From contig OZ014411.1 in NCBI GenBank assembly GCA_963965975.1, positions 22,720,249 through 22,784,248 of the forward strand: a DNA stretch of 64,000 nucleotides. The letters are read 5' to 3'. Shown piece after piece: positions 10,101-44,300 of this stretch. The position numbers and the translations under genes are program-made. The notes under the pieces are model-generated. The model made no database searches, was not told where the DNA came from, and was given only the letters and a program-made list of their open reading frames with translations. The first letter of the stretch is position 1; every line of letters begins with the position of its first letter. Source of the DNA: Xestospongia bergquistia (taxonomy: Eukaryota; Porifera; Demospongiae; Haplosclerida; Petrosiidae).

Positions 10101-13100
10101 AAATGTTACCTGTCAATATATACAATAGCTACATTTATTATAAACTGTCTGTAAGCTACCACTTACTACCACTGTAAGCTTAAATTCGATCTCTAATTAA
10201 GAAAAGTATTAGCATTGTCCTCTTTGTCAGAGAAAAATAAGATAGTATATTGTTGTCCAAGACTGTCAAAATTAAATTCAACCAATAACCTTTTTTAAAA
10301 TTTAACTTTTATGTGTGGTTTATCAAACTAAATGAATAATTGTTATATAATCATTGTGCGTACAAGTAAACTGATAGGATTTACCTTCCATGTGTTGGCT
10401 ATATTTTCCTCATCATATCCAAGTACACTGTCAGGTGTGGGAAACACTTCACCTCTTTTAACACCAAATGGAGTATGAATCTATAGAAATGAAAGTACAG
10501 AAATTAAACATATAAAATCATGGGATTAAAATTTAATGTTATTTACAAAACACTATTGATCAATATTAAATTAATTTAAACATGTATATGTGTCAGATAT
10601 GTGTTTATTTTACTTTATCTTATAACAGGAAGTTATGGTTTATTAAATAGATTATAATTAACCGTTAGAGTGCTTAGCTAATAGATGTGTAGGCAGCCAA
10701 GTGTGTTGTCTTTATCTAATATTATGTAGTTTAGTTGCCTTTACACAATAACACACTTCAATACATGTATATTAAATGAATTGTTTAAAGTGGACACACA
10801 CACACACACATACTCTTTATACTAACCAACCATATTAAGTATAATTACAACATTAAGTATATTCATTACTACAAATTTATATAGATTAAAAGGTGAAGTT
10901 TCCTGTACAACAAAACTGGTAATCCTATGTAGTCAACTCATACAAACATAATCAATAAATCATTTAGACCCTAACTCAGGTCCTTAACTTGTGTATTTAT
11001 TAGTATGGGTTGATAGGGTTACCTTGCCTGGATGCTACTTATTAGTATGGGTTGATAGGGTTACCTTGCCTGGATGCTACTTATTAGTATGGGTTGATAG
11101 GGTTACCTTGCCTGGATGCTACTTATTAGTATGGGTTGATAGGGTTACCTTGCCTGCATGCTACTTATTAGTATGGGTTGATAGGGTTACCTTGCCTGCA
11201 TGCTACATGTACCCAGGGCAGTGTTGCCCTAGTTGATACTTGTGAGGCTTGGCACCACTTGCTTCAACATAAACGTCAACAAATACAATTTGTATTGTAA
11301 GTCTATTGCAGGGTCATGTGGTTATGGTCAGCAGGTCAAGAATAAGAATATCAAGAATAGATTCATCTCTTACCATCAGCCAGTCTATCTCCAGATGGCT
11401 AGCTACCTTATACTAACATACACACATATGTATAACAATACCATTGAGTACAAACACTGTAAAATAAGCATATTCATTAACCACAAATTACTACAAGTAC
11501 ACACACTAATTGATGTCATATTCTAAAAAGGAACAAACTATTTGTGTGTTGTACTGGGTAGTAAGAAACAAGTCTAGTTAAAATCACGTACCAAGAACAA
11601 GTCCACATAGTCTAGTTTAAGTCTCTGTAGACTATCTCTACAAGCACTCTCCACATCACTAGGACTATGATAACAACTCCTATATAGAAAACAAAGGAAG
11701 ATGATTTAATAAATGAGGTAATTTTTAAGACACAAACAGATAAAGTCACATTCAAGAGACAGACATTACAAGGGAAGCCACTTAGTTAGTTCTATAAACA
11801 GATGACAATACATTTGGATTGTGCCAGACATGAAATCACTTCAAGACAATCTTCTATAAAACTACAGCTGTTAAAACATAGTACATGTGTCTGAATGATT
11901 TAACTATGATTATGAAATCATAATGACCAACACAATTTGCTTACAGATATGATCATTATAAACAAAATAGTAAGGATACATGTACAATATCATCAATGAC
12001 AATGTGATTTACAATATATATGAACTGACATAAGTACATGTACATTAAGAAGTTGCTCAAGATATTATTTGAAATGTTATAGATATCACTTAATCAATTA
12101 ACTTTACTTATTTACATGACATCTCTTTGAAACTTTACGTGTAATTTAACAAAATATTAATAAATTTTAGGCCTGGATAAAACTAGTTGAAATATTACAT
12201 TTCCAGTATGAGAAAGTCCTTATACCATATAAGGTAACTATAGTTGCAGATAGTACTGCTGTACTTACCATAACTTTGTAGTGATGAACATGTCTTCTCT
12301 TTTGACCACACCTTCTTTAAACAACTTCTCTAAAGCCTCTCCAATTTCTTCTTCATTTTGATAAATAAAAGCTGTATCAATGTGTCGATAACCTATCTTT
12401 ACTGCTACTTCCACTGCTGGAGCAGCTATTCCTGGTATTGGATCTTCTTGCCAAGTACTACATAAAAAAACACCAAATAACAAATTTAACAATCAGGCAA
12501 CACAAATAGTACATATTAACATTCACATTATTTTGGAAATACTCTCAAACTATAACAATTTATTTGATACTAAATCAGAAAATAGTATAATCAGGAATAC
12601 ACACACACACACACATTTGAAATTTACACTAGCTAGAAAACGATTGAAGGCATCAATTAGAAATTACAGTAATTACATACCACATAGTTAACTAATAGGA
12701 CACAAAGTTTACATAGCATGTTAATATAGTATTATTTTAACTATCCTAATATTAAGTGACTATCATATACTAGTAGTAATACAAAGTGTCTCTTGGGAAA
12801 ATCTATAATAATTATATAATACTAAATTACAAACTAAACATTTTAGAAACACAAAAAAACAGTCTGCATATTATATAATTGACTTCAATTAATCTATAAT
12901 AATAAATAACTAATCAAATTCCTTCATTAAAGTTTATAATCCCTTTAAAACCTGTTAAGAAGTTTATAAATTCCCACTTACAAACCTGTAAATGAGGAAA
13001 TAGTTTTATAATTACTATTATAGTGAATAATGTGATGAGTTGTTGTTATAATAGATCATTTGATTATATTAATACAATCAGAGGATTCTGAAATGTTAAT

Positions 13101-13644
13101 GAAGTGCTTTGTGAAAATGTGACAGGTCTTTAAGTGCTTTGATTAATAGGGGAGTGGTTTTATATTGGTCTGGTCACATAATTTTAAAGCTTTGAGAAAA
13201 TTAAATTTATTCTTAATTTGTAGGAGTTGTCTCACTACATTGCTCCATTATGTCTCCCAAATAAGCACTTTTATAATATAAGTGTCACAAGTGTACATAA
13301 ATTGCTATACAAACCTCATGCCTTCAGCCCTCAGTTCATAAATGCCTCCACCTTATAACCAATACATAAATAATGCAGGGTACAGTTGTACCCAGTGAAT
13401 AAGTGTGACATTAGGATGTCATCACACAAATACTAAAAACAATACTGGTGGTACTAGCAAAATCACAGCAAATATCAACTATTAGTCAATAAATGTATGC
13501 AACAAGGAACTTTTAGATTATAACTCACCCTAGTCCAAGTGTGGGCATTCGTACACCATTGTTAAGGACTACCTATAATAGAAAGGATAGAATAATTTCT
13601 AGTATAACACCTGTGTGTACTTCCTATCTCACCGTATTTGCCAT
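7116..13644 (-). CDS. Aldo-keto reductase (AKR1/aldose-reductase type), complete, 9 exons
   Basis: Exons: 13633-13644, 13529-13572, 12269-12457, 11592-11679, 10385-10480, 9337-9454, 8879-8935, 7638-7768, 7116-7370. All splice phases agree and the total is 990 bp, giving 329 residues and a stop. Exon 1 holds only the four codons MANT. The protein is a typical NADPH-dependent (alpha/beta)8-barrel reductase of aldehydes and ketones, expected in the cytosol. The catalytic tetrad is intact: Asp46 in GYRHIDTA, Tyr51 in FIYQNE, Lys80 in ITTKLW, His113 in LIHTP (usually LIHWP, so Trp to Thr beside the histidine). GVSNF, AYSPLGS and IPKS cofactor-binding motifs follow in order. Length and motif spacing match animal AKR1 enzymes, so it is probably functional; the substrate cannot be told. 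The introns hold an AC-rich tract (8640-8706) and a 42-bp minisatellite. Its 5' end is copied four more times inside the GT92 array. Confidence 0.93.
8628..8706. repeat. AC/AT-rich microsatellite in an AKR intron
   Basis: Imperfect alternating purine-pyrimidine tract (ACACAC, ATATAC, ATATAT) of about 80 bp. Shorter (AC)9 runs lie at 10794-10811 and 12599-12616 in other introns of the same gene. Confidence 0.85.
10999..11206. repeat. Minisatellite, about five 42-bp units
   Basis: Unit core TAGTATGGGTTGATAGGG followed by TTACCTTGCCTGGATGCTAC. The first three units carry GGATGC and the last two GCATGC, so the units are almost identical. It lies in the AKR intron between the 11592 and 10385 exons. 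Because 42 is a multiple of three it gives an apparent open frame on the plus strand, which I do not regard as a gene. Confidence 0.95.
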
Positions 13645-13843: not shown

Positions 13844-16592
13844 CTAACAAATGTGACTTTGAATACCCTCTAAAGTTTGATTGAAATATCTGCTCATAAA
13901 AAATGACCGTTCCTTCTTCTTTGGGACTTTATATCTCAGTCTAAAACGATAGTGAAACAGTAGTCCAACATTTAGTGGTACATCATAATGACTCATGTAC
14001 CCATTTTTTACAAGTTGCACACCATGAACATCACCTGATATCATTGCTTGAGGTTTCACTATTACTTTATGATTGGGATGTGACTTGGCATCAGTTATTG
14101 GATCACCACTTCGTAAAGTGTAAGTAACATAACGTGGCCACTTCATTTTGTCACATTTCTCTGAAAATTTTACATCTGGAAGACTAATTCCATCACTCCA
14201 AAATACTGTATGAAAGAAGACATATGATGCTGCTTTTGGGCTTGATCTTTCTAACACAGGAAGTAAGTCAGTTATTTTTACATATTTTTTCTCTTGAGGT
14301 ATAATAAATTCATCAATATCAGTTAAAGCAAGGTACTTGACACGATATAGATTACGATAGATACATTCATTGATAAGACCAGTTTGTCCCCAAGCTACAG
14401 TAAGTCCAGACAGTACAGCATTTATGTTCCAGTCAAGTACCTCCACAGTGCTAGCATTGATATAAGGTAATAAAATGTCATAAAATGACTCTGGAACACT
14501 CTGGAAATAAACAGTAATAATTTCTGCACCTAGTGCTAAGTTTAATTCTATCCAATCTATTAACAACTGAGGGTCATTCAAATTATAAAGAGGTTGGTGA
14601 AGACAAATGCCAAAAGTGTAGTTTTTGCTTACAACTGATTGTACTGGAAATGAGACTGATAAATTGACACATTGTGCATTAGTGGTGAGTTTAATTTGCA
14701 ATGGAATTTCAGATGGAATTTTAGAGCTGGTTTTTAGTAAATAAGAGACCCAAAATCGACGCCATTTTGGTACAACTTGACCAACCTGTGTCCATACTAC
14801 TAACTTTATACAAATTGATGATCTCATATCATCATAGTCTAATAGAGCATACAAATCAGGTTTCTTGTTAAACTTCTTTAAGTCATGCATACTAATAAAT
14901 AAAATAGTTACATCACTCTTGTTTCTTTCATCATAATAAGCCAGACGTCTAATCTGAAGTGAAAATCAGGGATAAAATAAAAATATCATTATGGTTATAT
15001 GAACTGTTAACTAATTATCGTATTAAAAGCACGAAGCTCATTTTTAAATATCTTTTTACAATATAAAAATGTTTGCAATAGGTCAATGTAAAGTTGTTTG
15101 AACTGTTCATTTTTACTGACAAATCCACATGTATTAACCCTCACTACTTACTGGTTGAGAGTTAGAGTACTATTGTCAGTCTGTCTATCTGTCTGTTCCA
15201 AAACCATTTACTTTGTATGCATTATGTAATTTTCTATATAATATTATTGAAAACTTGTACAAATGCTTCCCTCTCAAATTATGGTAATTTGCTTACATTG
15301 ATCTGCTAAGGTCTTCCACGTCTATTAATGAATATTTAATCCTTACTGTTCATTCAGTTACAGTATTTGCTTTGTGTATGAATATTGGCTGGCAATGCAT
15401 TTCAAATTGTTCTAACTTGTTAACATCAGTGTGTACAGCTTCACAGAAAAAGCCAAAACTATTTGTTGTTGTAGATCAAAAAAAATCTGTCAAAGGAAAA
15501 CAAACCTTGAAAAAGTAAGAAAGACTCTTCAAAAAAGCACATGCAAGACAGAACAAGCATTTGGTTTATTCTACATCAGAAGGTATAGTTAGGAATGGGT
15601 TTTACTTCAGCTCAAACTTCACAACCATCAGAAACTCAATCTATGTTACCTTTAGAGATTCAATATAATAACTGCTCTAACAGCTTACTACAAAGTTTAA
15701 GGTGTATTATTGATAATAATCTACTAATAATAATTAGTTTGAAGCCAAACTTCCAAGTCATCAACAATGCTAATAACACATGTCGCCATGTGAGTCATAG
15801 CATGCTCAAGGTTTAAATGTTCCTTTGATTTTTGATACATGTATTACTAGTATTACAGACTCAACAAAATGTATTTACTATATGCATTAATGTAAGTATC
15901 ACTTACCACAAAATACTGGTTAATGTGAACCCATAACTTGTTAAGTGGAGCTGGATGATAAAATAGAGACTCAATTTCGCTTGACATCTAAAATAAAATG
16001 TCAGATTACAGAACTATACAACTAATAACGACATCAAGACTGTACATAAATTAATAGAGTCTATAAACTTCTTTGTATTCATCCTTTGTTATCTATAGAC
16101 CTACATAACTAATGTACATATATACACTGGATAATGGAGCAGTATAACACTTTTAACTATGGAAAGCAGGCATACCACTCAAACCTTAATGAACCAATCT
16201 CCACTAACCACTTTGTTGGCAAATTATGGGTACAATTGATTTGTTGAAGACAATAATATTTACACATGTAATAAATATATGACTTCTATTGTTAAAAGTG
16301 AGAGACATCTGCATGTATTCTACACTAGTGTCTTTATGTACTCTCAGAAAGTCAGTAAATAGCTGATAAGAGCTTATACTCTCAGCCCTAGACCTACACA
16401 ACACTCACAGTCCTGAGTTTAATTTTGTGAAGTGCCAAACTGCCAGCTTACTTCGCGATCTTGTGGCTTCATTTTGAGTATTGTGAAGTCTATAGATTGC
16501 CAACTATAAGCTAGACAAGTTATCAATAGGACTAAAGCAACTGCAATGACTAATCCAGCCACAAGCACACGTTTAAGAAGTATTAACGACAT
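13844..16592 (-). CDS. GT92 family glycosyltransferase, copy A
   Basis: Exons 16452-16592, 15907-15987 and 13844-14953 join in phase to give 443 residues. Exon 1 begins at the ATG at 16590-16592 (the upstream in-frame triplet is TTG) and encodes a short cytosolic tail and one membrane segment at about residues 11-30 (VAGLVIAVALVLLITCLAYS). This is a type II Golgi topology. Exon 3 holds the GT92 (DUF23) domain: FGICLHQPLY, LIDWIELNLALGAEIITVYF, the DxD-type DIDEF near residue 286, HKVIVKP, VHG and the HYR motif near 408. Known members of this family transfer galactose to glycans; the acceptor here is unknown. The 3' part of exon 3 has A-specific changes (HGVQLVKNGYMSHYD) not seen in C or E. 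The exon 2 frame itself starts with ATG, so a shorter form lacking the membrane anchor is conceivable. The AKR gene starts only about 200 bp downstream of the stop. Confidence 0.9.
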
Positions 16593-16999
16593 TCCTTTGT
16601 ATTTCAATCAGTCACCAAACGTATGTATGTAAGTCATGGTCAGACCCAGCCCCTATGATTGAACGACAGACTTATTCACTGCATTTACTTTTCCTTTTTC
16701 CCTACCTTGAATTTATATAACTATACCATACTATAAACCTCCTGTTTTTAGTTTGGTACAAATATTGTTTGTTCAGTTATGTTGTCTATAGTAACTTTTA
16801 TCTGATTATATTTTATATACAATCATTTATATTTATATTTTGTTTCTTCCTGTAGATAGATTACCTCTTCTTAGATATGAATCAAGAGACAGTGTGACTG
16901 CTATCACTGCACTTCTCTTTAAGCACTATGTTCAATAAACTAGATACATTAAAAATAGAGTAAAAGCCATATTAATTTTTAATCATGCTCAGCTAGAAG

Positions 17000-17100
17000 G
17001 TGGACTACCTATAATAGAAAGGATAGAATAGTTTCTAGTATAACGTCTGTGTGTCTCACGGTATTTGCCATAGTTAAGGATAAAGATGAGCAACTAGATA
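17000..17100 (-). pseudogene. Copied 5' end of the aldo-keto reductase (beside copy B)
   Basis: From 17003 the sequence matches the AKR region beginning inside its exon 2 (GGACTACC..TATAATAGAAAG, equal to 13567 onward). It continues through intron 1 to a copy of exon 1 at 17060-17071 that still reads ATG GCA AAT ACC followed by GTGAG. Only the first few bases of AKR exon 2 are included, so no reductase can be made from it. The copied stretch continues through the former AKR upstream region into the 3' end of GT92 copy B. Confidence 0.8.
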
Positions 17101-17246
17101 ATCAGCCACACCTATATCATAACAGTTATTGATATAATAAGTTGATTGATTATTAATAACAGTACATTTTCTGATCTTGTGTTATTAATGTCTTGATATA
17201 AAAAGACATAATAACAATAAAGTAACTAAAATAATAATACAATATT

Positions 17247-19985
17247 CTAACAAATGTGACTTTGAATACCCTCTAAAGTTTGATTGAAATATCTGCTCAT
17301 AAGAAATGATCGTTCCTTCTTCTTTGAGACTTCATATCTCAGTCTAGAACGATAATGAAACAGTAGTCCAACATTTAGTGGAACATCATACTGTCTCTTG
17401 AAGCCATTTTTTACAAGTAGTGCACCATGAACATCACCTGATATCATTGCTTGAGGTTTCACTATTACTTTATGATTGGGATGTGACTTGGCATCAGTTA
17501 TTGGATCACCACTTCGTAAAGTGTAAGTAACATAACGTGGCCACTTCATTTTGTCACATTTCTCTGAAAATTTTACATCTGGAAGACTAATTCCATCACT
17601 CCAAAATACTGTATGAAAGAAGACATATGATGCTGCTTTTGGGCTTGATCTTTCTAACACAGGAAGTAAGTCAGTTATTTTTACATATTTTTTCTCTTGA
17701 GGTATAATAAATTCATCAATATCGATTAAAGCAAGGTACTTGACACGATATAAATTACGATAGATACATTCATTGATAAGACCAGTTTGTCCCCAAGCTA
17801 CAGTAAGTCCAGACAGTACAGCATTTATGTTCCAGTCAAGTACCTCCACAGTGCTAGCATTGATATAAGGTAATAAAATGTCATAAAATGACTCTGGAAC
17901 ACTCTGGAAATAAACAGTAATAATTTCTGCACCTAGTGCTAAGTTTAATTCTATCCAATCTATTAACAACTGAGGGTCATTCAAATTATAAAGAGGTTGG
18001 TGAAGACAAATGCCAAAAGTATAGTTTTTGCTTACATTTGATTGTACTGGAAATGAGACTGATAAATTGACACATTGTTCATTAGTGGAGAGTTTAATTT
18101 CTAATGGAATTTCAGTTGGAATTTTAGAGCTGGTTTTTAGTAAATAAGAGATCAAAAATTGATTCCATTTTGGTACAAATTGACCTACATGTGTCCATAC
18201 TACTAACTTTACACAAATTGATGATCTGTTATCATAGTCTAATAGAGCATATAAATCAGGTTTCTTGTTAAACTTCTTTAAGTCATGCATACTAATAAAT
18301 AATATAGTTACATCACTCTTGTTTCTTTCATCATAATAAGCCAGACGTCTAATCTGAAGTGAAAATCAGACATAAAATAAAAATATCTTTATGGTTATAT
18401 GAACTGTTAACTAATTATCATATTAAAAGCACGAAGCTCATTTTTAAATATCTTTTTACAATATAAAAATGTTTGCAATAGGTCAATGTAAAGTTGTTTG
18501 AATTGTTCATTTTTACTGACAAATCCACATGTATTAACCCTCACTACTTACTGGTTGAGAATTAGAGTACTATTGTCAGTCTGTTTATCTGTCTGTTCCA
18601 AAAGCATTTACTTTGTATGCATTATGTAATTTTCTACATATTAAAAACTTGTAAAAATGCTTCCCTCTCAAATTATGGTAATTTGCTTACCTTGATCTGC
18701 TAAGGTCTTCCACATCTATTAATGAATATTTAATCCTCACTGTTCATTCAGTTACAGTATTTGCTTTGTGTATGGATATTGGCTGGCAATGCATTTCAAA
18801 TTGTTCTAACTTGTTAACATCAGTGTGTACAGCTTCACAGAAAAAGCCAAAACTATTTGTTGTTTTAGATCAAAAAAAATCTTTCAAAGGAAAACACACC
18901 TTGAAAAAGTCAGACTCTTCAAAAAAGCACATGCAAGACAGAACAAGCATTTGGTTTATTCTACATCAGAAGCTATAGTTAGGAATGGCTTTTACTTCAG
19001 CTCAAACTTCACAACCATCAGAAACTCAATCTATGTATGTTACCTTTAGAGATTCAATATAATAACTACTCCAACCACTTACTACAAAGTTTAAGGTGTA
19101 TTATTGATAATAATCTACTAATATAATTAGTTTGAAGCCAAACTTCCAAGTCATCAACAATGCTAATAACACATGTCGCCATGTGAGTCATAGCATGCTC
19201 AAGGTTTAAATGTTCCTTTGATTTTTGATACATGTATTACTAGTATTACAGACTCAACAAAATGTATTTACTATATGCATTAATGTAAGTATCACTTACC
19301 ACAAAATACTGGTTAATGTGAACCCATAACTTGTTAAGTGGAGCTGGATGATAAAATAGAGACTCAATTTCACTTGGCATCTAAAATAAAATGTCAGATT
19401 ACAGAACTATACAACTAATAATGACATCAAGACTGTACGTAAATTAATAGAGTCTATAAACTTCTTTGTATTCATCCTTTGTTATCTATAGACCTACATA
19501 ACTAATGTACATATATACACTGGATAATGGAGCAGTATAACACTTTTAACTATGGAAAGCAGGCATACCACTCAGACCTTAATGAACCAATCTCCACTAA
19601 CCACTTTGTTGGCAAATTATGGGTACAATTGATTTGTTGAAGACAATAATATTTACACATGTAATAAATATATGACTTTTATTGTTAAAAGTGAGAGACA
19701 TCTGCATGTATTCTACACTAGTGTCTTTATGTACTCTCAGAAAATCAGTAAATAGCTGATAAGAGCTTATACTCTCAGCCCTAGACCTACACAACACTCA
19801 CAGTCCTGAGTTTAATTTTGTGAAGTGCCAAACTGCCAGCTTACTTCGCGATCTTGTGGCTTCATTTTGAGTATTGTGAAGTCTATAGATTGCCAACTAT
19901 AAGCTAGACAAGTTATCAATAGGACTAAAGCAACTGCAATGACTAATCCAGCCACAAGCACACGTTTAAGAAGTATTAACGACAT
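17247..19985 (-). CDS. GT92 family glycosyltransferase, copy B
   Basis: Same three-exon plan as its neighbours: 19845-19985, 19300-19380 and 17247-18353, in phase, 442 residues. The membrane segment, DIDEF, HKVIVKP and HYR motifs are all present. It differs from A by a one-codon deletion near the start of the catalytic region (DYDNRSS for DYDDMRSS). It has its own version of the C-terminal third (VKNGFKRQYDVP, LRYEVSKKKE). The encoded protein is identical to copy D, 7,161 bp away. Upstream of exon 1 lies a 359-bp MITE insertion that copies A and C lack. Probably functional. Confidence 0.9.
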
Positions 19986-20066
19986 TCCTTTGTATTTCAA
20001 TCAGTCACAAAACGTATGTAAGTCGTGGGTCAGACCCAGCCCCTATGATTGAACGACAGACTTATT

Positions 20067-20425
20067 TCCTCAGACAGACATTCCAATTCCTATTTCTAAT
20101 TTCAATATAGCGGGGTTATACGGAGTTTTAATGTCCGTTCTCGGCTTCTCTAAATAATCGAACTACAAGATACAACCAAAATCAGGGACCCAACCTAACT
20201 GGAAACATCTCCCTGACGCTCAATTCTAAGAGACGGCTCGTGGTACTCGCGCTCCGCGTTTTATTAAGTAACAAGAAAAGCCTAGAAGTGGCGCACATGC
20301 CAAAAATGGAATTAGGAATGAGAAATTGGACTCATCAACTGGATCGTTAATTGGAATTTTTAAATACGCCAAGGTTCGCGAAGAAATAAGAAAAAGGAAT
20401 TGGAATGTCCGTCTGCGGCTTCCTT
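20067..20425. mobile_element. 359-bp MITE in the copy B upstream region
   Basis: Copy A reads straight through at this site (about 16665), which defines the insertion. It is flanked by a 7-bp duplication ACTTATT (20060-20066 and 20426-20432). The ends are imperfect inverted repeats containing CAGACAGACATTCCAATTCC and its near complement GGAATTGGAATGTCCGTCTG. A conserved inner block has TTCTAAGAGACGGCTCGTGG. No ORF. It is richer in GC and CpG than its surroundings. Confidence 0.85.
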
Positions 20426-20757
20426 ACTTATTCACTGCATTTACTTTTCCTTTTTCCCTACCTTGAATTTATATAACTATACCATACTATAAACCTCCTG
20501 TTTTTAGTTTGGTACAAATATTGTTTGTTCAGTTATGTTGTCTATAGTAACTTTTATCTGATTATATTTTATATACAATCATTTATATTTATATTTTGTT
20601 TCTTCCTGTAGATAGATTACCTCTTCTTAGATATGAATCAAGAGACAGTGTGACTGCTATCACTGCACTTCTTTAAGAACTATGTTCAATAAACTAGATA
20701 CATTAAAAATAGAGTAAAAGCCATATTCATTTTTAATCATGCTCAGCTAGAAGGTGG

Positions 20758-20860
20758 ACTACCTATAATAGAAAGGATAGAATAGTTTCTAGTATAACGT
20801 CTGTGTGTCTCATGGTATTTGCTATAATTGAGGATAAAGATGAGCAACTAGATAATCAGC
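20758..20860 (-). pseudogene. Copied AKR 5' end, decayed (beside copy C)
   Basis: Same relic as at 17000, but the exon 1 copy near 20812-20826 reads ATA instead of ATG, and the donor has become ATGAG. It is thus inactive both as a start and as a splice site. The identical version at 27919-28021 sits beside copy E. Confidence 0.75.
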
Positions 20861-21004
20861 CACACCTATGTCATAACAGTTATTGATATAATAAGAAGTT
20901 ACTTGATTGATTATTAATAACAGTACATTATCTGATCTTGTGTTATTAATATCTTGATATAAAAAGACATAGTAACAATAAAGTAACAAAAATAATAATA
21001 AAAT

Positions 21005-23753
21005 CTAACAAATGTGACTTTGAATACCCTCTAAAGTTTGATTGAAATATCTGCTCATAAGAAATGATCGTTCCTTCTTCTCTGGGACTTTATATCTCAG
21101 TCTAGAACGATAATGAAACAGTAGTCCAACATTTAGTGGTACATCATAGTGACTCGTGTAGCCATTTTTTACAAGTAGCGCACCATGAACATCACCTGAT
21201 ATCATTGCTTGAGGTTTCACTATTACTTTATGATTGGGATGTGACTTGGCATCAGTTATTGGATCACCACTTCGTAAAGTGTAAGTAACATAACGTGGCC
21301 ACTTCATTTTGTCACATTTCTCTGAAAATTTTACATCTGGAAGACTAATTCCATCACTCCAAAATACTGTATGAAAGAAGACATATGATGCTGCTTTTGG
21401 GCTTGATCTTTCTAACACAGGAAGTAAGTCAGTTATTTTTACATATTTTTTCTCTTGAGGTATAATAAATTCATCAATATCAGTTAAAGCAAGGTACTTG
21501 ACACGATATAGATTACGATAGATACATTCATTGATAAGACCAGTTTGTCCCCAAGCTACAGTAAGTCCAGACAGTACAGCATTTATGTTCCAGTCAAGTA
21601 CCTCCACAGTGCTAGCATTGATATAAGGTAATAAAATGTCATAAAATGACTCTGGAACACTCTGGAAATAAACAGTAATAATTTCTGCACCTAGTGCTAA
21701 GTTTAATTCTATCCAATCTATTAACAACTGAGGGTCATTCAAATTATAAAGAGGTTGGTGAAGACAAATGCCAAAAGTGTAGTTTTTGCTTACAACTGAT
21801 TGTACTGGAAATGAGACTGATAAATTGACACATTGTGCATTAGTGGTGAGTTTAATTTGCAATGGAATTTCAGATGGAATTTTAGAGCTGGTTTTTAGTA
21901 AATAAGAGACCCAAAATCGACGCCATTTTGGTACAACTTGACCAACCTGTGTCCATACTACTAACTTTATACAAATTGATGATCTCATATCATCATAGTC
22001 TAATAGAGCATACAAATCAGGTTTCTTGTTAAACTTCTTTAAGTCATGCATACTAATAAATAAAATAGTTACATCACTCTTGTTTCTTTCATCATAATAA
22101 GCCAGACGTCTAATCTGAAGTGAAAATCAGGGATAAAATAAAAATATCATTATGGTTATATGAACTGTTAACTAATTATCGTATTAAAAGCACGAAGCTC
22201 ATTTTTAAATATCTTTTTACAATATAAAAATGTTTGCAATAGGTCAATGTAAAGTTGTTTGAACTGTTCATTTTTACTGACAAATCCACATGTATTAACC
22301 CTCACTACTTACTGGTTGAGAGTTAGAGTACTATTGTCAGTCTGTCTATCTGTCTGTTCCAAAACCATTTACTTTGTATGCATTATGTAATTTTCTATAT
22401 AATATTATTGAAAACTTGTACAAATGCTTCCCTCTCAAATTATGGTAATTTGCTTACATTGATCTGCTAAGGTCTTCCACGTCTATTAATGAATATTTAA
22501 TCCTTACTGTTCATTCAGTTACAGTATTTGCTTTGTGTATGAATATTGGCTGGCAATGCATTTCAAATTGTTCTAACTTGTTAACATCAGTGTGTACAGC
22601 TTCACAGAAAAAGCCAAAACTATTTGTTGTTGTAGATCAAAAAAAATCTGTCAAAGGAAAACAAACCTTGAAAAAGTAAGAAAGACTCTTCAAAAAAGCA
22701 CATGCAAGACAGAACAAGCATTTGGTTTATTCTACATCAGAAGGTATAGTTAGGAATGGGTTTTACTTCAGCTCAAACTTCACAACCATCAGAAACTCAA
22801 TCTATGTTACCTTTAGAGATTCAATATAATAACTGCTCTAACAGCTTACTACAAAGTTTAAGGTGTATTATTGATAATAATCTACTAATAATAATTAGTT
22901 TGAAGCCAAACTTCCAAGTCATCAACAATGCTAATAACACATGTCGCCATGTGAGTCATAGCATGCTCAAGGTTTAAATGTTCCTTTGATTTTTGATACA
23001 TGTATTACTAGTATTACAGACTCAACAAAATGTATTTACTATATGCATTAATGTAAGTATCACTTACCACAAAATACTGGTTAATGTGAACCCATAACTT
23101 GTTAAGTGGAGCTGGATGATAAAATAGAGACTCAATTTCGCTTGACATCTAAAATAAAATGTCAGATTACAGAACTATACAACTAATAACGACATCAAGA
23201 CTGTACATAAATTAATAGAGTCTATAAACTTCTTTGTATTCATCCTTTGTTATCTATAGACCTACATAACTAATGTACATATATACACTGGATAATGGAG
23301 CAGTATAACACTTTTAACTATGGAAAGCAGGCATACCACTCAAACCTTAATGAACCAATCTCCACTAACCACTTTGTTGGCAAATTATGGGTACAATTGA
23401 TTTGTTGAAGACAATAATATTTACACATGTAATAAATATATGACTTCTATTGTTAAAAGTGAGAGACATCTGCATGTATTCTACACTAGTGTCTTTATGT
23501 ACTCTCAGAAAGTCAGTAAATAGCTGATAAGAGCTTATACTCTCAGCCCTAGACCTACACAACACTCACAGTCCTGAGTTTAATTTTGTGAAGTGCCAAA
23601 CTGCCAGCTTACTTCGCGATCTTGTGGCTTCATTTTGAGTATTGTGAAGTCTATAGATTGCCAACTATAAGCTAGACAAGTTATCAATAGGACTAAAGCA
23701 ACTGCAATGACTAATCCAGCCACAAGCACACGTTTAAGAAGTATTAACGACAT
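21005..23753 (-). CDS. GT92 family glycosyltransferase, copy C (A/E hybrid)
   Basis: Exons 23613-23753, 23068-23148 and 21005-22114, in phase, 443 residues, all GT92 motifs intact. From exon 1 through most of exon 3 it matches copy A exactly at protein level (for example PKWRRFWVSY). The last stretch of exon 3 matches copy E instead (HGALLVKNGYTSHYD, LRYKVPEKKERSF). The last A/C difference is at 21180. The first position where E departs from both is at the equivalent of 21349. The gene is therefore the product of a crossover between an A-type and an E-type gene within that interval. Reading frame is preserved, so a hybrid enzyme is expected. Confidence 0.9.
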
Positions 23754-24160
23754 TCCTTTGTATTTCAATCAGTCACCAAACGTATGTATGTAAGTCATGG
23801 TCAGACCCAGCCCCTATGATTGAACGACAGACTTATTCACTGCATTTACTTTTCCTTTTTCCCTACCTTGAATTTATATAACTATACCATACTATAAACC
23901 TCCTGTTTTTAGTTTGGTACAAATATTGTTTGTTCAGTTATGTTGTCTATAGTAACTTTTATCTGATTATATTTTATATACAATCATTTATATTTATATT
24001 TTGTTTCTTCCTGTAGATAGATTACCTCTTCTTAGATATGAATCAAGAGACAGTGTGACTGCTATCACTGCACTTCTCTTTAAGCACTATGTTCAATAAA
24101 CTAGATACATTAAAAATAGAGTAAAAGCCATATTAATTTTTAATCATGCTCAGCTAGAAG

Positions 24161-24261
24161 GTGGACTACCTATAATAGAAAGGATAGAATAGTTTCTAGT
24201 ATAACGTCTGTGTGTCTCACGGTATTTGCCATAGTTAAGGATAAAGATGAGCAACTAGATA
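24161..24261 (-). pseudogene. Copied AKR 5' end (beside copy D)
   Basis: Exactly 7,161 bp from the relic at 17000 and with the same content: the start of exon 2, intron 1 and an intact-looking exon 1 copy (ATG GCA AAT ACC, then GTGAG) at 24221-24232. Confidence 0.8.
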
Positions 24262-24407
24262 ATCAGCCACACCTATATCATAACAGTTATTGATATAATA
24301 AGTTGATTGATTATTAATAACAGTACATTTTCTGATCTTGTGTTATTAATGTCTTGATATAAAAAGACATAATAACAATAAAGTAACTAAAATAATAATA
24401 CAATATT

Positions 24408-27146
24408 CTAACAAATGTGACTTTGAATACCCTCTAAAGTTTGATTGAAATATCTGCTCATAAGAAATGATCGTTCCTTCTTCTTTGAGACTTCATATCT
24501 CAGTCTAGAACGATAATGAAACAGTAGTCCAACATTTAGTGGAACATCATACTGTCTCTTGAAGCCATTTTTTACAAGTAGTGCACCATGAACATCACCT
24601 GATATCATTGCTTGAGGTTTCACTATTACTTTATGATTGGGATGTGACTTGGCATCAGTTATTGGATCACCACTTCGTAAAGTGTAAGTAACATAACGTG
24701 GCCACTTCATTTTGTCACATTTCTCTGAAAATTTTACATCTGGAAGACTAATTCCATCACTCCAAAATACTGTATGAAAGAAGACATATGATGCTGCTTT
24801 TGGGCTTGATCTTTCTAACACAGGAAGTAAGTCAGTTATTTTTACATATTTTTTCTCTTGAGGTATAATAAATTCATCAATATCGATTAAAGCAAGGTAC
24901 TTGACACGATATAAATTACGATAGATACATTCATTGATAAGACCAGTTTGTCCCCAAGCTACAGTAAGTCCAGACAGTACAGCATTTATGTTCCAGTCAA
25001 GTACCTCCACAGTGCTAGCATTGATATAAGGTAATAAAATGTCATAAAATGACTCTGGAACACTCTGGAAATAAACAGTAATAATTTCTGCACCTAGTGC
25101 TAAGTTTAATTCTATCCAATCTATTAACAACTGAGGGTCATTCAAATTATAAAGAGGTTGGTGAAGACAAATGCCAAAAGTATAGTTTTTGCTTACATTT
25201 GATTGTACTGGAAATGAGACTGATAAATTGACACATTGTTCATTAGTGGAGAGTTTAATTTCTAATGGAATTTCAGTTGGAATTTTAGAGCTGGTTTTTA
25301 GTAAATAAGAGATCAAAAATTGATTCCATTTTGGTACAAATTGACCTACATGTGTCCATACTACTAACTTTACACAAATTGATGATCTGTTATCATAGTC
25401 TAATAGAGCATATAAATCAGGTTTCTTGTTAAACTTCTTTAAGTCATGCATACTAATAAATAATATAGTTACATCACTCTTGTTTCTTTCATCATAATAA
25501 GCCAGACGTCTAATCTGAAGTGAAAATCAGACATAAAATAAAAATATCTTTATGGTTATATGAACTGTTAACTAATTATCATATTAAAAGCACGAAGCTC
25601 ATTTTTAAATATCTTTTTACAATATAAAAATGTTTGCAATAGGTCAATGTAAAGTTGTTTGAATTGTTCATTTTTACTGACAAATCCACATGTATTAACC
25701 CTCACTACTTACTGGTTGAGAATTAGAGTACTATTGTCAGTCTGTTTATCTGTCTGTTCCAAAAGCATTTACTTTGTATGCATTATGTAATTTTCTACAT
25801 ATTAAAAACTTGTAAAAATGCTTCCCTCTCAAATTATGGTAATTTGCTTACCTTGATCTGCTAAGGTCTTCCACATCTATTAATGAATATTTAATCCTCA
25901 CTGTTCATTCAGTTACAGTATTTGCTTTGTGTATGGATATTGGCTGGCAATGCATTTCAAATTGTTCTAACTTGTTAACATCAGTGTGTACAGCTTCACA
26001 GAAAAAGCCAAAACTATTTGTTGTTTTAGATCAAAAAAAATCTTTCAAAGGAAAACACACCTTGAAAAAGTCAGACTCTTCAAAAAAGCACATGCAAGAC
26101 AGAACAAGCATTTGGTTTATTCTACATCAGAAGCTATAGTTAGGAATGGCTTTTACTTCAGCTCAAACTTCACAACCATCAGAAACTCAATCTATTTATG
26201 TTACCTTTAGAGATTCAATATAATAACTACTCCAACCACTTACTACAAAGTTTAAGGTGTATTATTGATAATAATCTACTAATATAATTAGTTTGAAGCC
26301 AAACTTCCAAGTCATCAACAATGCTAATAACACATGTCGCCATGTGAGTCATAGCATGCTCAAGGTTTAAATGTTCCTTTGATTTTTGATACATGTATTA
26401 CTAGTATTACAGACTCAACAAAATGTATTTACTATATGCATTAATGTAAGTATCACTTACCACAAAATACTGGTTAATGTGAACCCATAACTTGTTAAGT
26501 GGAGCTGGATGATAAAATAGAGACTCAATTTCACTTGGCATCTAAAATAAAATGTCAGATTACAGAACTATACAACTAATAATGACATCAAGACTGTACG
26601 TAAATTAATAGAGTCTATAAACTTCTTTGTATTCATCCTTTGTTATCTATAGACCTACATAACTAATGTACATATATACACTGGATAATGGAGCAGTATA
26701 ACACTTTTAACTATGGAAAGCAGGCATACCACTCAGACCTTAATGAACCAATCTCCACTAACCACTTTGTTGGCAAATTATGGGTACAATTGATTTGTTG
26801 AAGACAATAATATTTACACATGTAATAAATATATGACTTTTATTGTTAAAAGTGAGAGACATCTGCATGTATTCTACACTAGTGTCTTTATGTACTCTCA
26901 GAAAATCAGTAAATAGCTGATAAGAGCTTATACTCTCAGCCCTAGACCTACACAACACTCACAGTCCTGAGTTTAATTTTGTGAAGTGCCAAACTGCCAG
27001 CTTACTTCGCGATCTTGTGGCTTCATTTTGAGTATTGTGAAGTCTATAGATTGCCAACTATAAGCTAGACAAGTTATCAATAGGACTAAAGCAACTGCAA
27101 TGACTAATCCAGCCACAAGCACACGTTTAAGAAGTATTAACGACAT
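24408..27146 (-). CDS. GT92 family glycosyltransferase, copy D
   Basis: Exons 27006-27146, 26461-26541 and 24408-25514, in phase, 442 residues. The product is the same as copy B, whose every landmark lies exactly 7,161 bp to the left. I noticed only isolated single-base differences in noncoding parts (for example near 26195 against 19034). It carries the same upstream MITE (27228-27586) as B. Type II membrane topology with complete GT92 motifs; probably active and functionally redundant with B. Confidence 0.9.
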
Positions 27147-27227
27147 TCCTTTGTATTTCAATCAGTCACAAAACGTATGTAAGTCGTGGGTCAGACCCAG
27201 CCCCTATGATTGAACGACAGACTTATT

Positions 27228-27586
27228 TCCTCAGACAGACATTCCAATTCCTATTTCCAATTTCAATATAGCGGGGTTATACGGAGTTTTAATGTCCGTT
27301 CTCGGCTTCTCTAAATAATCGAACTACAAGATACAACCAAAATCAGGGACCCAACCTAACTGGAAACATCTCCCTGACGCTCAATTCTAAGAGACGGCTC
27401 GTGGTACTCGCGCTCCGCGTTTTATTAAGTAACAAGAAAAGCCTAGAAGTGGCGCACATGCCAAAAATGGAATTAGGAATGAGAAATTGGACTCATCAAC
27501 TGGATCGTTAATTGGAATTTTTAAATACGCCAAGGTTCGCGAAGAAATAAGAAAAAGGAATTGGAATGTCCGTCTGCGGCTTCCTT
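27228..27586. mobile_element. Same MITE, copied with the doublet (upstream of copy D)
   Basis: Lies exactly 7,161 bp from the element at 20067-20425, with the same ends and the same ACTTATT duplications. It was therefore inherited through the segmental duplication rather than inserted separately. One internal base differs near 27258. Confidence 0.85.
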
Positions 27587-27918
27587 ACTTATTCACTGCA
27601 TTTACTTTTCCTTTTTCCCTACCTTGAATTTATATAACTATACCATACTATAAACCTCCTGTTTTTAGTTTGGTACAAATATTGTTTGTTCAGTTATGTT
27701 GTCTATAGTAACTTTTATCTGATTATATTTTATATACAATCATTTATATTTATATTTTGTTTCTTCCTGTAGATAGATTACCTCTTCTTAGATATGAATC
27801 AAGAGACAGTGTGACTGCTATCACTGCACTTCTTTAAGAACTATGTTCAATAAACTAGATACATTAAAAATAGAGTAAAAGCCATATTCATTTTTAATCA
27901 TGCTCAGCTAGAAGGTGG

Positions 27919-28021
27919 ACTACCTATAATAGAAAGGATAGAATAGTTTCTAGTATAACGTCTGTGTGTCTCATGGTATTTGCTATAATTGAGGATAAAG
28001 ATGAGCAACTAGATAATCAGC
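27919..28021 (-). pseudogene. Copied AKR 5' end, decayed (beside copy E)
   Basis: Same decayed version as at 20758, with ATA in place of the start codon and no GT at the donor. It shows that the C and E flanks share a more recent ancestor with each other than with the B and D flanks. Confidence 0.75.
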
Positions 28022-28165
28022 CACACCTATGTCATAACAGTTATTGATATAATAAGAAGTTACTTGATTGATTATTAATAACAGTACATTATCTGATCTT
28101 GTGTTATTAATATCTTGATATAAAAAGACATAGTAACAATAAAGTAACAAAAATAATAATAAAAT

Positions 28166-31100
28166 CTAACAAATGTGACTTTGAATACCCTCTAAAGTTT
28201 GATTGAAATATCTGCTCATAAGAAATGATCGTTCCTTCTTCTCTGGGACTTTATATCTCAGTCTAGAACGATAATGAAACAGTAGTCCAACATTTAGTGG
28301 TACATCATAGTGACTCGTGTAGCCATTTTTTACAAGTAGCGCACCATGAACATCACCTGATATCATTGCTTGAGGTTTCACTATTACTTTATGATTGGGA
28401 TGTGACTTGGCATCAGTTATTGGATCACCACTTCGTAAAGTGTAAGTAACATAACGTGGCCACTTCATTTTGTCACATTTCTCTGAAAATTTTACATCTG
28501 GAAGACTAACTCCATCACTCCAAAATACTGTATGAAAGAAGACATATGATGCTGCTTTTGGGCTTGATCTTTCTAACACAGGAAGTAAGTCAGTTATTTT
28601 TACATATTTTTTCTCTTGAGGTATAATAAATTCATCAATATCGATTAAAGCAAGGTACTTGACACGATATAGATTACGATAGATACATTCATTGATAAGA
28701 CCAGTTTGTCCCCAAGCTACAGTAAATCCAGACAGTACAGCATTTATGTTCCAGTCAAGTACCTCCACAATGCTAGCATTGATATAAGGTAATAAAATGT
28801 CATAAAATGACTCTGGAACACTCTGGAAATAAACAGTAATAATTTCTGCACCTAGTGCTAAGTTTAATTCTATCCAATCTATTAACAACTGAGGGTCATT
28901 CAAATTATAAAGAGGTTGGTGAAGACAAATGCCAAAAGTGTAGTTTTTGCTTACATTTGATTGTACTTGAAATGAGACTGATAAATTTTCACATTGTACA
29001 TTAGTGGTGAGTTTAATTTCTAATGGAATTTCAGTTGGAATTTTAGAGCTGGTTTTTAGCAAATAAGAGACCCAATATTGACCCCATTTTGGTACAACTG
29101 GACCAACCTGTGTCCATACTACTAACTTTACACAAATTGATGATCTCTTATCATCATAGTCTAATAGAGCATATAAATCAGGTTTCTTGTTAAACTTCTT
29201 TAAGTCATGCATACTAATAAATAAAATAGTTACATCACTCTTGTTTCTTTCATCATAATAAGCCAGACGTCTAATCTGAAGTGAAAATCAGACATAAAAT
29301 AAAAATATCATATGCTTATATGAACTGTTAACTAATTATATATTCATTGTTTTCTGCCAATACATTTCAATAGACAATCTGGGCAATCCTTACATAGGCA
29401 CTGCTACCACATCCCTCAGTGTTTTGTTAAATAGTCTTTGACAAGAAAAGAAATGTTTGTATGAATTTGAGAGCCTTTGTTATAACTTAATAAGCTACAT
29501 GGTAAGCTAAATGTACAACTTATCTAAGGAAAGTTTGCTGTTACATGCAAATTTTGTTAGTTAAGACATTCATCACAACAACGAACAACACTACTCAGTT
29601 GCTTTAGAATATTTCTGAGACTTTTCATTGCCATAGTTACGACTAAATGCCATAGTAAAAGGGACACGAACTAACTCTAAATTTTGACACTTTGTTAAAA
29701 ATGCTTTTCTAAGTTTTTCTACTTTGTTAGTTTGATTTGTTTCTACATGTGTTTAATCCGTCTACATGATAATGTTCTTATTATGTAATAGCAAAATGTA
29801 AATTGTAATGCTCTATATACAAAGTGTTAAATAACAGCTATATGTCATATCACACTGTGGATAAATAGTGTATTGAATTTGTACAGAAAAGAATGAGTCA
29901 TTAATGTGATAGAACATCATGAGTGGGATCTGTTGCATCTTATAAGGAATGCATTTCCTATTAAGCCATACATTATAAAGAGTTTTGAGCGTGTTCAGTT
30001 ATCATAAAGTAAGGAGACATCCCGCATTATCTACTAAAACGTGTAAAATGTTGTTGTCCTTAAAAAAAAGATTGACTTAATATATATCAGAAAGTTAAGT
30101 CATGGCTATGACATTTACTTCAGTTCAAACTTTAAAACCATCAGAAACTCAATCTATATGTTACCTTTAGAGATTCAATATAATAACTGTACTAAAAACC
30201 TGTTAGCCACTACAAAGTTTAAGGTGTATTATTAATAATAATCAACTATTAATAATTAGTTTGAAGCCATACTTCCAAGTCATCAACAATGCTAATAACA
30301 CATGTCATCATGTGCGTCATGTGATATAGCACACTCCAGGTTTATATATTCCTTTGATTTAGATATACGCCCTAGTATTACTTACAACTAGACTCAACAA
30401 AATCTATTTACTATATATGTTATGTAATTATCACTTACCACAAAATACTGGTTAATGCGAACCCATAACTCGCCAAGTGGAGCTGGATGATAAAATAGAG
30501 ACTCAATTTCGTCTGACCTCTAAAATAAAATGTCAGATTACAGAACTATGCAGCTAATAATGACATCAAGATTGTAAAAAATAAAGTCTATAAACCTTTT
30601 GTATTTATCCTTTGTCATGCATCATGTATATAGACCTACATAACTAATGTACATATATACACTAGGAGTAAACATTTTTTACTTCTAGAAAACATGCATA
30701 TCACTCAAACTTTAATGAACCAATCCCACATGGTATGGCAAATTATGGATACAACGAAATTATTGAAGAAAATAATATTCACACATACAATAAATGACTT
30801 TTAATGTTACAAGTGAGATACTTGTATGTATTCTACATTAGTACCAGTTACTTCCTAGAATATCAACTCCCAAAATGTCACCTCTCAAAATATCATATCC
30901 CAAAATGTCGTCAACTTCTAAAAAATGTCACCTCCTAAAATGCTAACTTACATTACAGTATTAGAATTAGCTTATAGATAATAACTTGGTAAATCTAATA
31001 ATTTACCAAACAGTAGGCCTTACAAATTTCATTTTAGTATTATAGCCTTACAATCTTTGATGTTTTTTGGTAATACTAGAAGCAATTGCACAAACTAAGT

Positions 31101-31775
31101 TCATCAAGTTAGATAATTCAGTATATAAAAGGAGTAGTTTAGCAATGTTTACTCTGTTCATGACGGAATGCAGCTTTTTTACCACATAAAAATGTGGAAG
31201 AGCATTTCTTACTGGAGGATATAGATATTTGACTATCAGAAAGGGTAAAGAATTTGGGACATGTTCTGATTGATTTACCCAGACCACAGAGGAGGCTGAC
31301 GTTGTCAAAGACATCAGAATAAATCACAATCATGTCCCAAACTCTGCTAAAAACAAAACAGAAAAGACAGTAGCTAGGATGAAGAAGAAAGCTTGGATCC
31401 GAAGTAATGTAACAAACTATGTCTTTTATAGCATAGTAGTTGACATAGTGGGAGTAGATATTTTGATTATGAGAGTTGATATTCTGAGACCCACCCTAGT
31501 GCCTATATGTTTTGGAGACTTTCAGAAAATCAGACAATAGCTGATAAGAGAGTATGCTCTCGGCTCCATACCTACACAACACTCACTGACCTTGAATACA
31601 ATTGTGTGAGTGCATACTGCCAGCTTACTTCATGATCTTGCTGTATCATTTGGTCACGGAGTATTGTGATGTCCTTAAATTGCCAACTATAAGCTAGGCA
31701 TGCTATCAATAGGACTGTTGCAATTGTTATACCTAACAAAGCCACGAGAACACGTTTGAGAACTATTAATGACAT
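28166..31775 (-). CDS. GT92 family glycosyltransferase, copy E (most diverged)
   Basis: Exons 31629-31775, 30439-30519 and 28166-29275, in phase, 445 residues. Exon 1 starts at the ATG at 31773-31775 and is two codons longer than in A-D (ILRDQMIQQDHE at its end). The membrane segment has diverged (VALLGITIATVLLIACLAYS). Exon 2 begins AGG where A-D have ATG, so no internal start exists here. Exon 3 has all GT92 motifs, with the variants DGVSLPD and NASIVEV. Intron 1 is about 650 bp longer than in the other copies because of an insertion (about 30844-31490), and intron 2 is partly unrelated to theirs. Its exon 3 3' end is the donor of the matching part of copy C. It is the outermost and oldest-looking member of the array. 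Confidence 0.88.
30844..31490. mobile_element. Insertion of about 645 bp in intron 1 of copy E
   Basis: Copies A-D have a 464-bp intron here and E has 1,109 bp. The homology breaks after CTACATTAGT and resumes at GCCTATATGT. The insert ends contain AGAATATCAACTC (about 30857) and its complement GAGTTGATATTCT (about 31469), so it is bounded by short inverted repeats. Its left end also holds an imperfect tandem run of CAAAATGTCACCTC-like units (30868-30945). Short open frames inside it match nothing I recognise. Confidence 0.65.
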
Positions 31776-41300: not shown

Positions 41301-44300
41301 ATACCATATATAGTAAGCACGGACACATTTTTAAATAGTAGTATGAATATGTTTGATATAGTGATTCCTGACACCCCACAATAGCTCTGTGATTGATGTG
41401 GTATAAATTGTGTTGACAATGCTGATCTTGTTATCTGATCCAGGACCACTAATTTGACCAACATACTTGGTCCGGAGGTTCCTGGTTATCGTACTTACCT
41501 GGCCTACTAATACATTTGTATTAGAGGGCGCAATTTTTGAGTGTTGGGTTCTCTATGAACCCTACATTCACTACAGAAAATAAAACATATCAATGTTACT
41601 GATTGAATTGAATATTTGGGGTGTGGTCTTTATATTATGTGGGATAATAATATTTAATTCTGTGTGACACTAGACACTCTATGTATTGTTGTTAATTTGG
41701 TATTAGAGATTATACCAGCTGCTACATCTGCCTTAAAAATTATGCTCTGTGTATTAATATAAAGTTTAAGTATTAACAAAGATGAGTAATCTACAATAAT
41801 TCATCAAAAAAGAAGGAATTGACATGTTTTTTTTTGCAAATTTGTCTGTACAAAGTTGTTATGTCATCATGAAAGTTCTTTAACTACCTCATGAATTCTA
41901 ACAACTACCTTTCAAAGTGCTTTTTAGAGATATATATTCATAAATCCCACCAGAAATTGATTTTAAATGGTTCCAAATAAGTTTCAGAAGTTGTAGTAGT
42001 ATCAAAAATCAAGATATTTAATGTTAAAAGATACTAGGAATTTATATCAAATATCTTAACAATAGTCATAACAGTTAGCTTTCTTTTGAAAGTTTATTAT
42101 AATTTATAAAGTAGGAAATTTATATCAAAGAATTTTCTACTTCAGAACAACTGTTAATGTTGTTTGTATTATCTAAAGACTTTTTTGTTTTCCACTTGAA
42201 CAATTTGCTACTTTCCAATTGTTTATATTTTTAGTTACAAACAACACAGTTTAATTTTTATTATGATCAGCTCTATTCAAATAAGCTATGCTTTAAAACA
42301 AAGGCTGTTCTTCTTTTTCAAAATCCTTTTTATAACTAATTTTAATCATTTGTTTGTGAGGATAATCATTTGTTATTTTATTATATTTTTAGAGGAGACA
42401 GATGACGAAGAAGAAGAAGGTTATGAAGAAGAGGAAGCTGACTTCAAAAAATTCATTGAAAGATCTGAAAACAGTAAGTAACTAGTACAATTATTAACTG
42501 TCTGTATTACAATATATTATAATATCATCGTAACATGTACATGTATGTATTTTTGTAATACTAGTATGTGTATACACTATACAGCACTAGTAATATACTG
42601 TTGCTCTATATACATGTATATGAGATATTTATTCCATGTTATTAGAAATTTATGAGGAACCTAGTATTACTCATCGACGTAAACTGATGTTGGGAGAAAA
42701 TGAAGACGAAATGGTGGAATATTTTAAATCACGATACGCTTCTCAGTCTGCAAGGTAAGGAACATCTTGGAATGTAAAGATACATATATTTTTGTTTTTA
42801 TGTGTTGCTATATCTATTTATATACATATCATAAGTACATGTAATAAATGTGTTGTGTACATTCTTAGTATTAGGCAGATGAGTTATACTTGTTATTTAC
42901 ATGTACATGTAAATATTGTTATAAATACATGTATTTTGTTGTAGTTTGGATGACCTCGAAGAACAACCACAAGAAATTGTTCAACAGAGTCTGTTACCTG
43001 GAGTGAAGTGAGTTTACCATTCATATATTTATCTTTTGTATTTATTATTTCTCTCTTTTAGAGACCCTAATTTGTGGACTGTTAAGTGTCGAGTAAGTTA
43101 GACTACATATACATGTACTGTTATAATATTATATATATATAATATATATTCAGGAGCCCATAAAATTGCAGGGTAGGAATACATGAATATAATTATTTTT
43201 CATCTTTTTACAACTCTTAGAGGTGTTACTATAGTCTATTTGTGTTCACCTTGCTGATAAAAAAATTATCATAACTTTCTAATAACTCAACCAAATTCAA
43301 AATTTCAAAATCAAGCTGTCTCCTGAGAACCATCCAGTTCTTTTGGCGTCATTATTTATATGATAGGACCCATAAGAACAAGATTTATTGTACTTTCCAT
43401 AAGCAAAGTATAGGAGATGCCATTGACCACGAGGAATGTGATCTTGTGAATTTCATTAATTGATAAAATAGCTACCGCTTGAAGTGAAAAACCAGTATGG
43501 TCAGAAATTCATTCTAACTGTAAAACTTTAATCATATAGATTAAAAGTACTATACTACTGTAGCTAAAAAATTTGTTCTTACAAGAAAAGAAAATCAACT
43601 CTATACACGCTGGGTTTTATTTTCATGTGATATAAGAATAATACCACAAGTATTTAATTTATGATCTGTTGTATGTGTTATGTATACTACTTATACCCAC
43701 TACTAATTTCTGGCAGCAAGGTGAACGCAAATAGACTATAATTTAAGACCACTTGGGAAGCCACACCCACACACTTGTAAGTCACGGACTATTTCAAAAT
43801 CAAAGTTTTGTTGACAAGAAAATGAAAGAGCTAGTTGCTAAGATACAGAAAAAACTCAAGAAGACATTTTAAAGAAATTTTGGCAGCTATGCATACAGAT
43901 ATTTTAGTAGTAGTACTAATGGCCATGTTCGTTTGTTTATGGATATAGCTTCGTGAGTGGTTTAAAAGTAGTAACAGCTCTAAGATTTGCAGAAACGTTT
44001 AAATGAGTATTTTATGAACAACTATTACATTATAATATATGTAGGTTGTGTAGTAATTTATTGCTGTTTGTGTTAATGTTATTAGAACTTACTATGCACA
44101 AAGTTACCATAGACATGTTACATGTATAACTATTAGTATTATTGTTCATACTTTTATTATTTATAGATTGGTACTGAAAAAGAGACAGTTATGACTCTTA
44201 TTAGAAAGTTCATCTCTCTACAAACATCAGATACAGTAAGAATTGTTTTTAAGTTAATGCACATTGTGTTACTGTGATACATTAGCACTGATCACTGGTA

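Follow-up and report, generated by a model that had tools for sequence, protein, structure and literature searches.

A hybrid GT92 gene at the seam of a 7161-bp tandem duplication in the assembled genome of a sponge

The window, by which we mean the whole stretch of 64,000 nucleotides that was analysed, comes from the sponge Xestospongia bergquistia, contains no N, and carries five GT92 genes, which all lie on the minus strand and were named A to E by rising coordinate. The predicted models of these genes have three phase-0 exons with common splice sites and without internal stops, and the predicted proteins comprise 443 residues in A and C, 442 in B and D, and 445 in E. The genes, with the exons of copy C given separately, are as follows:

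13844-16592, minus strand: copy A, with predicted exons 16592-16452, 15987-15907 and 14953-13844; proposed parent of the 5′ part of C
17247-19985, minus strand: copy B, with predicted exons 19985-19845, 19380-19300 and 18353-17247; apparently an older A/E mosaic
21005-22114, minus strand: exon 3 of copy C with the GT92 domain (PF01697, E=2.6e-25); A-type at and above 21349, E-type at and below 21180
23068-23148, minus strand: predicted exon 2 of copy C, 27 codons, phase 0, identical with A
23613-23753, minus strand: predicted exon 1 of copy C, 47 codons with the start and a hydrophobic stretch, identical with A
24408-27146, minus strand: copy D, duplicate of B, identical in exon 3, with a single substitution in intron 2
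28166-31775, minus strand: copy E, with predicted exons 31775-31629, 30519-30439 and 29275-28166; proposed parent of the 3′ part of C

About 10 kb left of the window there is a sixth GT92 copy, F (G000:C1:22709920-22711029, L006). Since its exon 3 carries two offsetting single-base indels and one TGA, copy F is probably a pseudogene. Its exon 3 is mostly E-like and its 3′ flank mostly A-like. Elsewhere in the window there are two minisatellites, one at 10994-11206 with a 42-bp period, inside an 82-codon open frame, and the other at 44291-44621 with a 27-bp period. On another contig, of 8.8 Mb, fragments resembling mitochondrial COX1 and containing stops (G000:C6:3154917-3155898 and 3199148-3200446) are perhaps nuclear copies of mitochondrial DNA. 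The mitochondrial contig itself, of 18,997 bp, has all its 25 tRNAs on the same strand, one of them labelled tRNA-SeC by a program that uses the bacterial code, and its cox1 can be read sensibly in code 4, features that look demosponge-like.

The 373-residue open reading frame of exon 3 of C matches PF01697 over residues 118-344 with 89.9 bits, against a cut-off of 23. Within it D216, D218 and E219, an acidic stretch that we take to be a DxD-type motif, are invariant in 12 aligned sequences, nine of which come from other GT92 loci of the genome. The hydrophobic stretch encoded by predicted exon 1 lies near the N-terminus, as judged by eye, and a type II membrane protein of the Golgi is a conceivable reading of it. 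In the genome 37 GT92 matches were found, three of which are fragments. The same contig carries a further close GT92 pair, at 13.02/13.03 Mb, whose members share 98% identity along 3.2 kb, so that the A-E array is not alone in having recent tandem copies.

When we compared exon 3 of A, C and E (1110 bp each) without gaps, A and E differed at 32 sites, and C agreed with A at the first 22 of these and with E at the last 10. The chance of such an order without exception is 1/C(32,10) = 1.6e-8. In an alignment of 1188 columns, which includes about 77 columns upstream of exon 3, there were 42 such sites, with C following A at 32 and then E at 10. A sequence-only reading of this DNA had described C as equal to A and then to E, with one switch in a coding exon whose minus-strand coordinates it gave exactly (22114-21005); the base-by-base alignment of the three copies bears this out, with a single breakpoint and no scattered A/E mosaic in C. 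The switch falls in the following interval:

21181-21348, minus strand: switch interval of 168 bp in which A, C and E are identical, the second-longest A/E-identical tract in exon 3

The same reading had located this interval correctly and had swapped the labels of its flanking bases. Position 21180 carries the E base and position 21349 the A base; read along the gene, the A-specific bases end at 21349 and the E-specific ones begin at 21180. Exon 3 of C is of A type for at least its first 766 bp, and the identity with A continues further upstream through the introns and exons 1-2. Beyond the stop, C is identical with E in the 3′ flank and into the spacer. The frame is kept in C, as had been proposed, and the 443-residue prediction contains no internal stop.

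The switch is located within the GT92 domain. The predicted C protein differs from that of A at six of 443 residues, all near the C-terminus, and, with gaps counted, from those of E and B at 37 and 23 aligned positions, respectively. At several of the switched positions C has the form common to E and F. Because A is the odd one out there, the switch may restore a common tail more than it invents a new one.

When we compared the window with itself at an offset of 7161, the segments 14020-21348 and 21181-28509 differed by two substitutions in 7329 compared positions. Hybrid C is the seam of a larger tandem duplication, which the sequence-only reading had overlooked, along with the sameness of B and D, the older A/E character of B and a MITE-like element in the spacers. 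The duplication consists of two units:

14020-21180, no strand: first copy of the duplicated unit, 7161 bp, with ends movable by 168 bp
21181-28341, no strand: second copy of the duplicated unit, 7161 bp, with substitutions at 19035/26196 and 20097/27258

The first unit runs from inside A through B to inside C, and the second from inside C through D to inside E; the 7161-bp unit carries the 5′ part of A, the whole of B, with D as its copy, and the 3′ end of E. The substitutions are G/T at 19035 and T/C at 20097, neither of them an indel or in a long homopolymer, and exon 3 of B and D is identical, with one difference between these copies, in intron 2. At 20097, in the B-C copy of a MITE-like element described below, T is the derived base, as C stands at this site in the two further copies of the element that were compared, and this suggests an independent change after the duplication; unlike 20097, the substitution at 19035 is not polarisable. 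As two substitutions separate the 7161-bp units, the duplication is recent and perhaps still polymorphic, and the earlier view of C as a young gene agrees with the two mismatches in 7329 positions.

Based on these observations, we consider it likely that hybrid C arose when E and A, in an array of the order A-B-E, underwent unequal homologous crossing over. The starting array would have contained three GT92 genes, all on the minus strand. E of one chromatid would have paired with A of the other, and an exchange inside the 168 bp of identical exon-3 sequence would have given the product A-B-(A/E hybrid C)-B(=D)-E, in which A, B and E are all retained. Hybrid C would then owe to A its upstream region, its first two exons and no less than the first 766 bp of exon 3, and to E the codons from there to the stop and the 3′ flank. 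Because the junction sits at homologous positions of A and E, the frame could be kept without coincidence. Such an exchange in A-B-E predicts a near-perfect duplication of 7161 bp with B equal to D in exon 3, and both were found, in keeping with the unequal crossing over between tandem copies that had been proposed from the letters. The retention of both parents and the duplication of the sequence between them also speak for crossing over. Counting against it is the limited similarity of A and E, about 94% along 1.4 kb, with no A/E-identical tract in exon 3 longer than 185 bp.

Here, we need to consider that the hybrid is true if the assembly is, and the main rival to a real hybrid C is a false duplication, in which the assembler went twice through the A/E-B loop and produced both a false duplicate and a false hybrid. 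The near-identity of the two units and the position of the junction within an A/E-identical tract are what such an error might leave. However, two substitutions part the units, one of them derived in one copy, and a loop via the 168-bp shared stretch would need very short overlaps; moreover, the genome, of 146 Mb, is assembled in 21 contigs and the window is free of N. A haplotype entered twice would be expected to show ordinary allelic differences, and it would not join at homologous points of A and E. We therefore regard an artefact as unlikely, although it is the alternative to which we give most weight.

We weighed two biological alternatives as well. If a pre-existing fifth copy had been overwritten by a tract from A or E, gene conversion would account for the switch, and conversion fits the homogenised appearance of the exon-3 core (A-E synonymous differences 1/128, compared with 67/695 in a noncoding piece upstream, p=1.6e-4) as well as the scattered A/E mosaic in B, where 16 of 50 sites are a-type, 30 e-type and four its own. 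Yet the identity of C is no short tract, since it equals A all along exons 1-2 and the introns, and E along the 3′ flank, and with D equal to B everything lies at one constant offset of 7161, which makes conversion very improbable as the origin of C. Any tandem duplication yields an identical two-unit structure, including one in which a replication or end-joining error joined equivalent points of A and E by chance, but an in-register junction in a 168-bp perfect match is improbable for such an error and expected from homologous exchange, and we give this origin hardly any credence.

Crossing over between E and A, our preferred reading for C, would have acted on an array with a history of its own. 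Upstream, B resembles A; its 3′ flank, in which the alignment to A stops at 13566, resembles E, and B looks like an older A/E product. Exon 3 of B (17247-18353), and likewise that of D, is a scattered A/E mosaic with variants of its own, unlike the clean switch in C. We considered B as a clean older single-switch hybrid and rejected this, because A and E types alternate inside the compared region. The spacers contain a MITE-like element:

20067-20425, plus strand: MITE-like element in the B-C spacer, with inverted ends of about 36 bp and a 7-bp target duplication, ACTTATT
27228-27586, plus strand: duplicated MITE-like element in the D-E spacer, a sequence match to the element in the B-C spacer

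The A-B spacer has the empty site of this element near 16670. Genome-wide, 456 first-look candidates were obtained, and the 40 that were scored comprised the two window copies and 38 others with 91-96% identity over most of their length, a count that is a lower bound given that 40 of 456 were scored. Because the site is empty in A-B and filled in B-C and D-E, the element orders two rounds of array growth. In the simplest order, a first A/E exchange or duplication would have given rise to B, the element would then have entered the B-E spacer, and the 7161-bp duplication would finally have produced C and D. Excision of the element from the A-B spacer, instead of its never having been present there, is less likely.

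We then examined divergence along exon 3. Both ends of the exon (13844-14953 in A) diverge more than the core among A, B and E. The synonymous differences in the core were 1/128 for A-E, 3/128 for A-B and 2/127 for B-E, and the low A-E value relative to the upstream noncoding piece suggests that exon 3 has been homogenised. Of 37 close GT92 pairs, 35 had a higher nonsynonymous rate in the C-terminal segment than in the core, the exceptions being C-E and L043-L046. Six of the 37 pairs are formed by A, B, C and E with one another, and because sequences recur in several pairs, the pairs are not independent. The 37 remained of 465 pairs from 31 sequences after the removal of 428 that had under 100 synonymous sites or a difference of 0.2 or more. 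We also considered whether the stretch preceding the GT92 domain has been under positive selection, and do not claim it: in this stretch pN exceeded pS in all six pairs among F, A, B and E, as in F-E with pN 0.031 and pS 0, and none of the differences was significant (Fisher p 0.18-0.64).

For A-B, synonymous differences in the pre-domain segment and C-terminus together amounted to 8/84, compared with 36/1487 in noncoding sequence (p=0.0017), in a test of one pair with segments picked after seeing the data and with a noncoding total that includes six differences in an 81-bp stretch beside the MITE site; for the pre-domain segment alone p was 0.11. Such a raised difference would be better explained by variants that are old or were imported than by selection alone. 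It might be supposed that the array is a shuffling device. The homogenised core would then act as a crossover platform, at which two rapidly changing ends, one preceding the GT92 domain and the other made up of the last 59 residues, are brought together in fresh combinations. The diversity would be maintained by selection acting on surface sugars, for example against microbes, with B as an earlier product and C as the latest. We think it improbable that the array works in this way.

In the excerpted account of GT92 genes in C. elegans (PMC10151413), galt-1 is a manganese-dependent galactosyltransferase, srf-2 affects the nematode surface and pathogen resistance, and three Arabidopsis members are galactan synthases. 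By analogy, the sponge GT92 genes may have a role in surface glycans. Hybrid C would be expected to be transcribed and to encode a working galactosyltransferase-like enzyme close to A. The sequence-only reading had gone further and credited C with a novel pairing of its catalytic core with a C-terminus for donor/acceptor binding. This is oversold, because the switch lies inside the GT92 domain and only six of 443 residues differ from A. A search for solved structures related by sequence gave none that was convincing, the sole match up to E=1 being an exo-beta-D-glucosaminidase chain at E=0.25, and an AlphaFold2 model of the hybrid exon-3 protein from four window sequences had a mean pLDDT of 30; for these reasons the C-terminal residues are not tied to substrate binding. 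Relatives sought in prokaryote genomes to deepen the alignment gave 40 pattern matches, none of them confirmed.

Anti-Lepore haemoglobin genes arise by unequal crossing over between tandem paralogues, which leaves an in-frame hybrid between both retained parents. The sponge A-C-E arrangement resembles them in having both parents with an in-frame hybrid between them, and differs in that a complete third gene, B, is included in the sponge unit. In the stickleback spiggin genes (PMC4989455), chimeric genes arose intrachromosomally and several chimeras are seen in transcripts, whereas the single chimera of the sponge is known from an assembly, where both the junction interval and the entire duplicated unit can be seen. 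The C. elegans genes srf-2, bah-1 and galt-1 share the PF01697/GT92 domain and belong to a large family, as the sponge genes do, and they have described mutants, while the sponge genes are known from sequence; the excerpted C. elegans account contains no claim of array recombination (PMC10151413). A literature search combining GT92/DUF23 with sponge gave no sponge GT92 array among the matches listed, which is weak evidence of absence.

The origin of C is an ordinary kind of event by a textbook mechanism with a modest change in the protein, and hybrid C alone leaves general understanding unchanged. It is a clean case, in which the chimeric gene, its parents, the junction and the complete duplicated unit all lie in one window. 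Should reads confirm it, the array would be well suited to following array turnover in a sponge and to finding out whether the end segments of GT92 proteins get shuffled.
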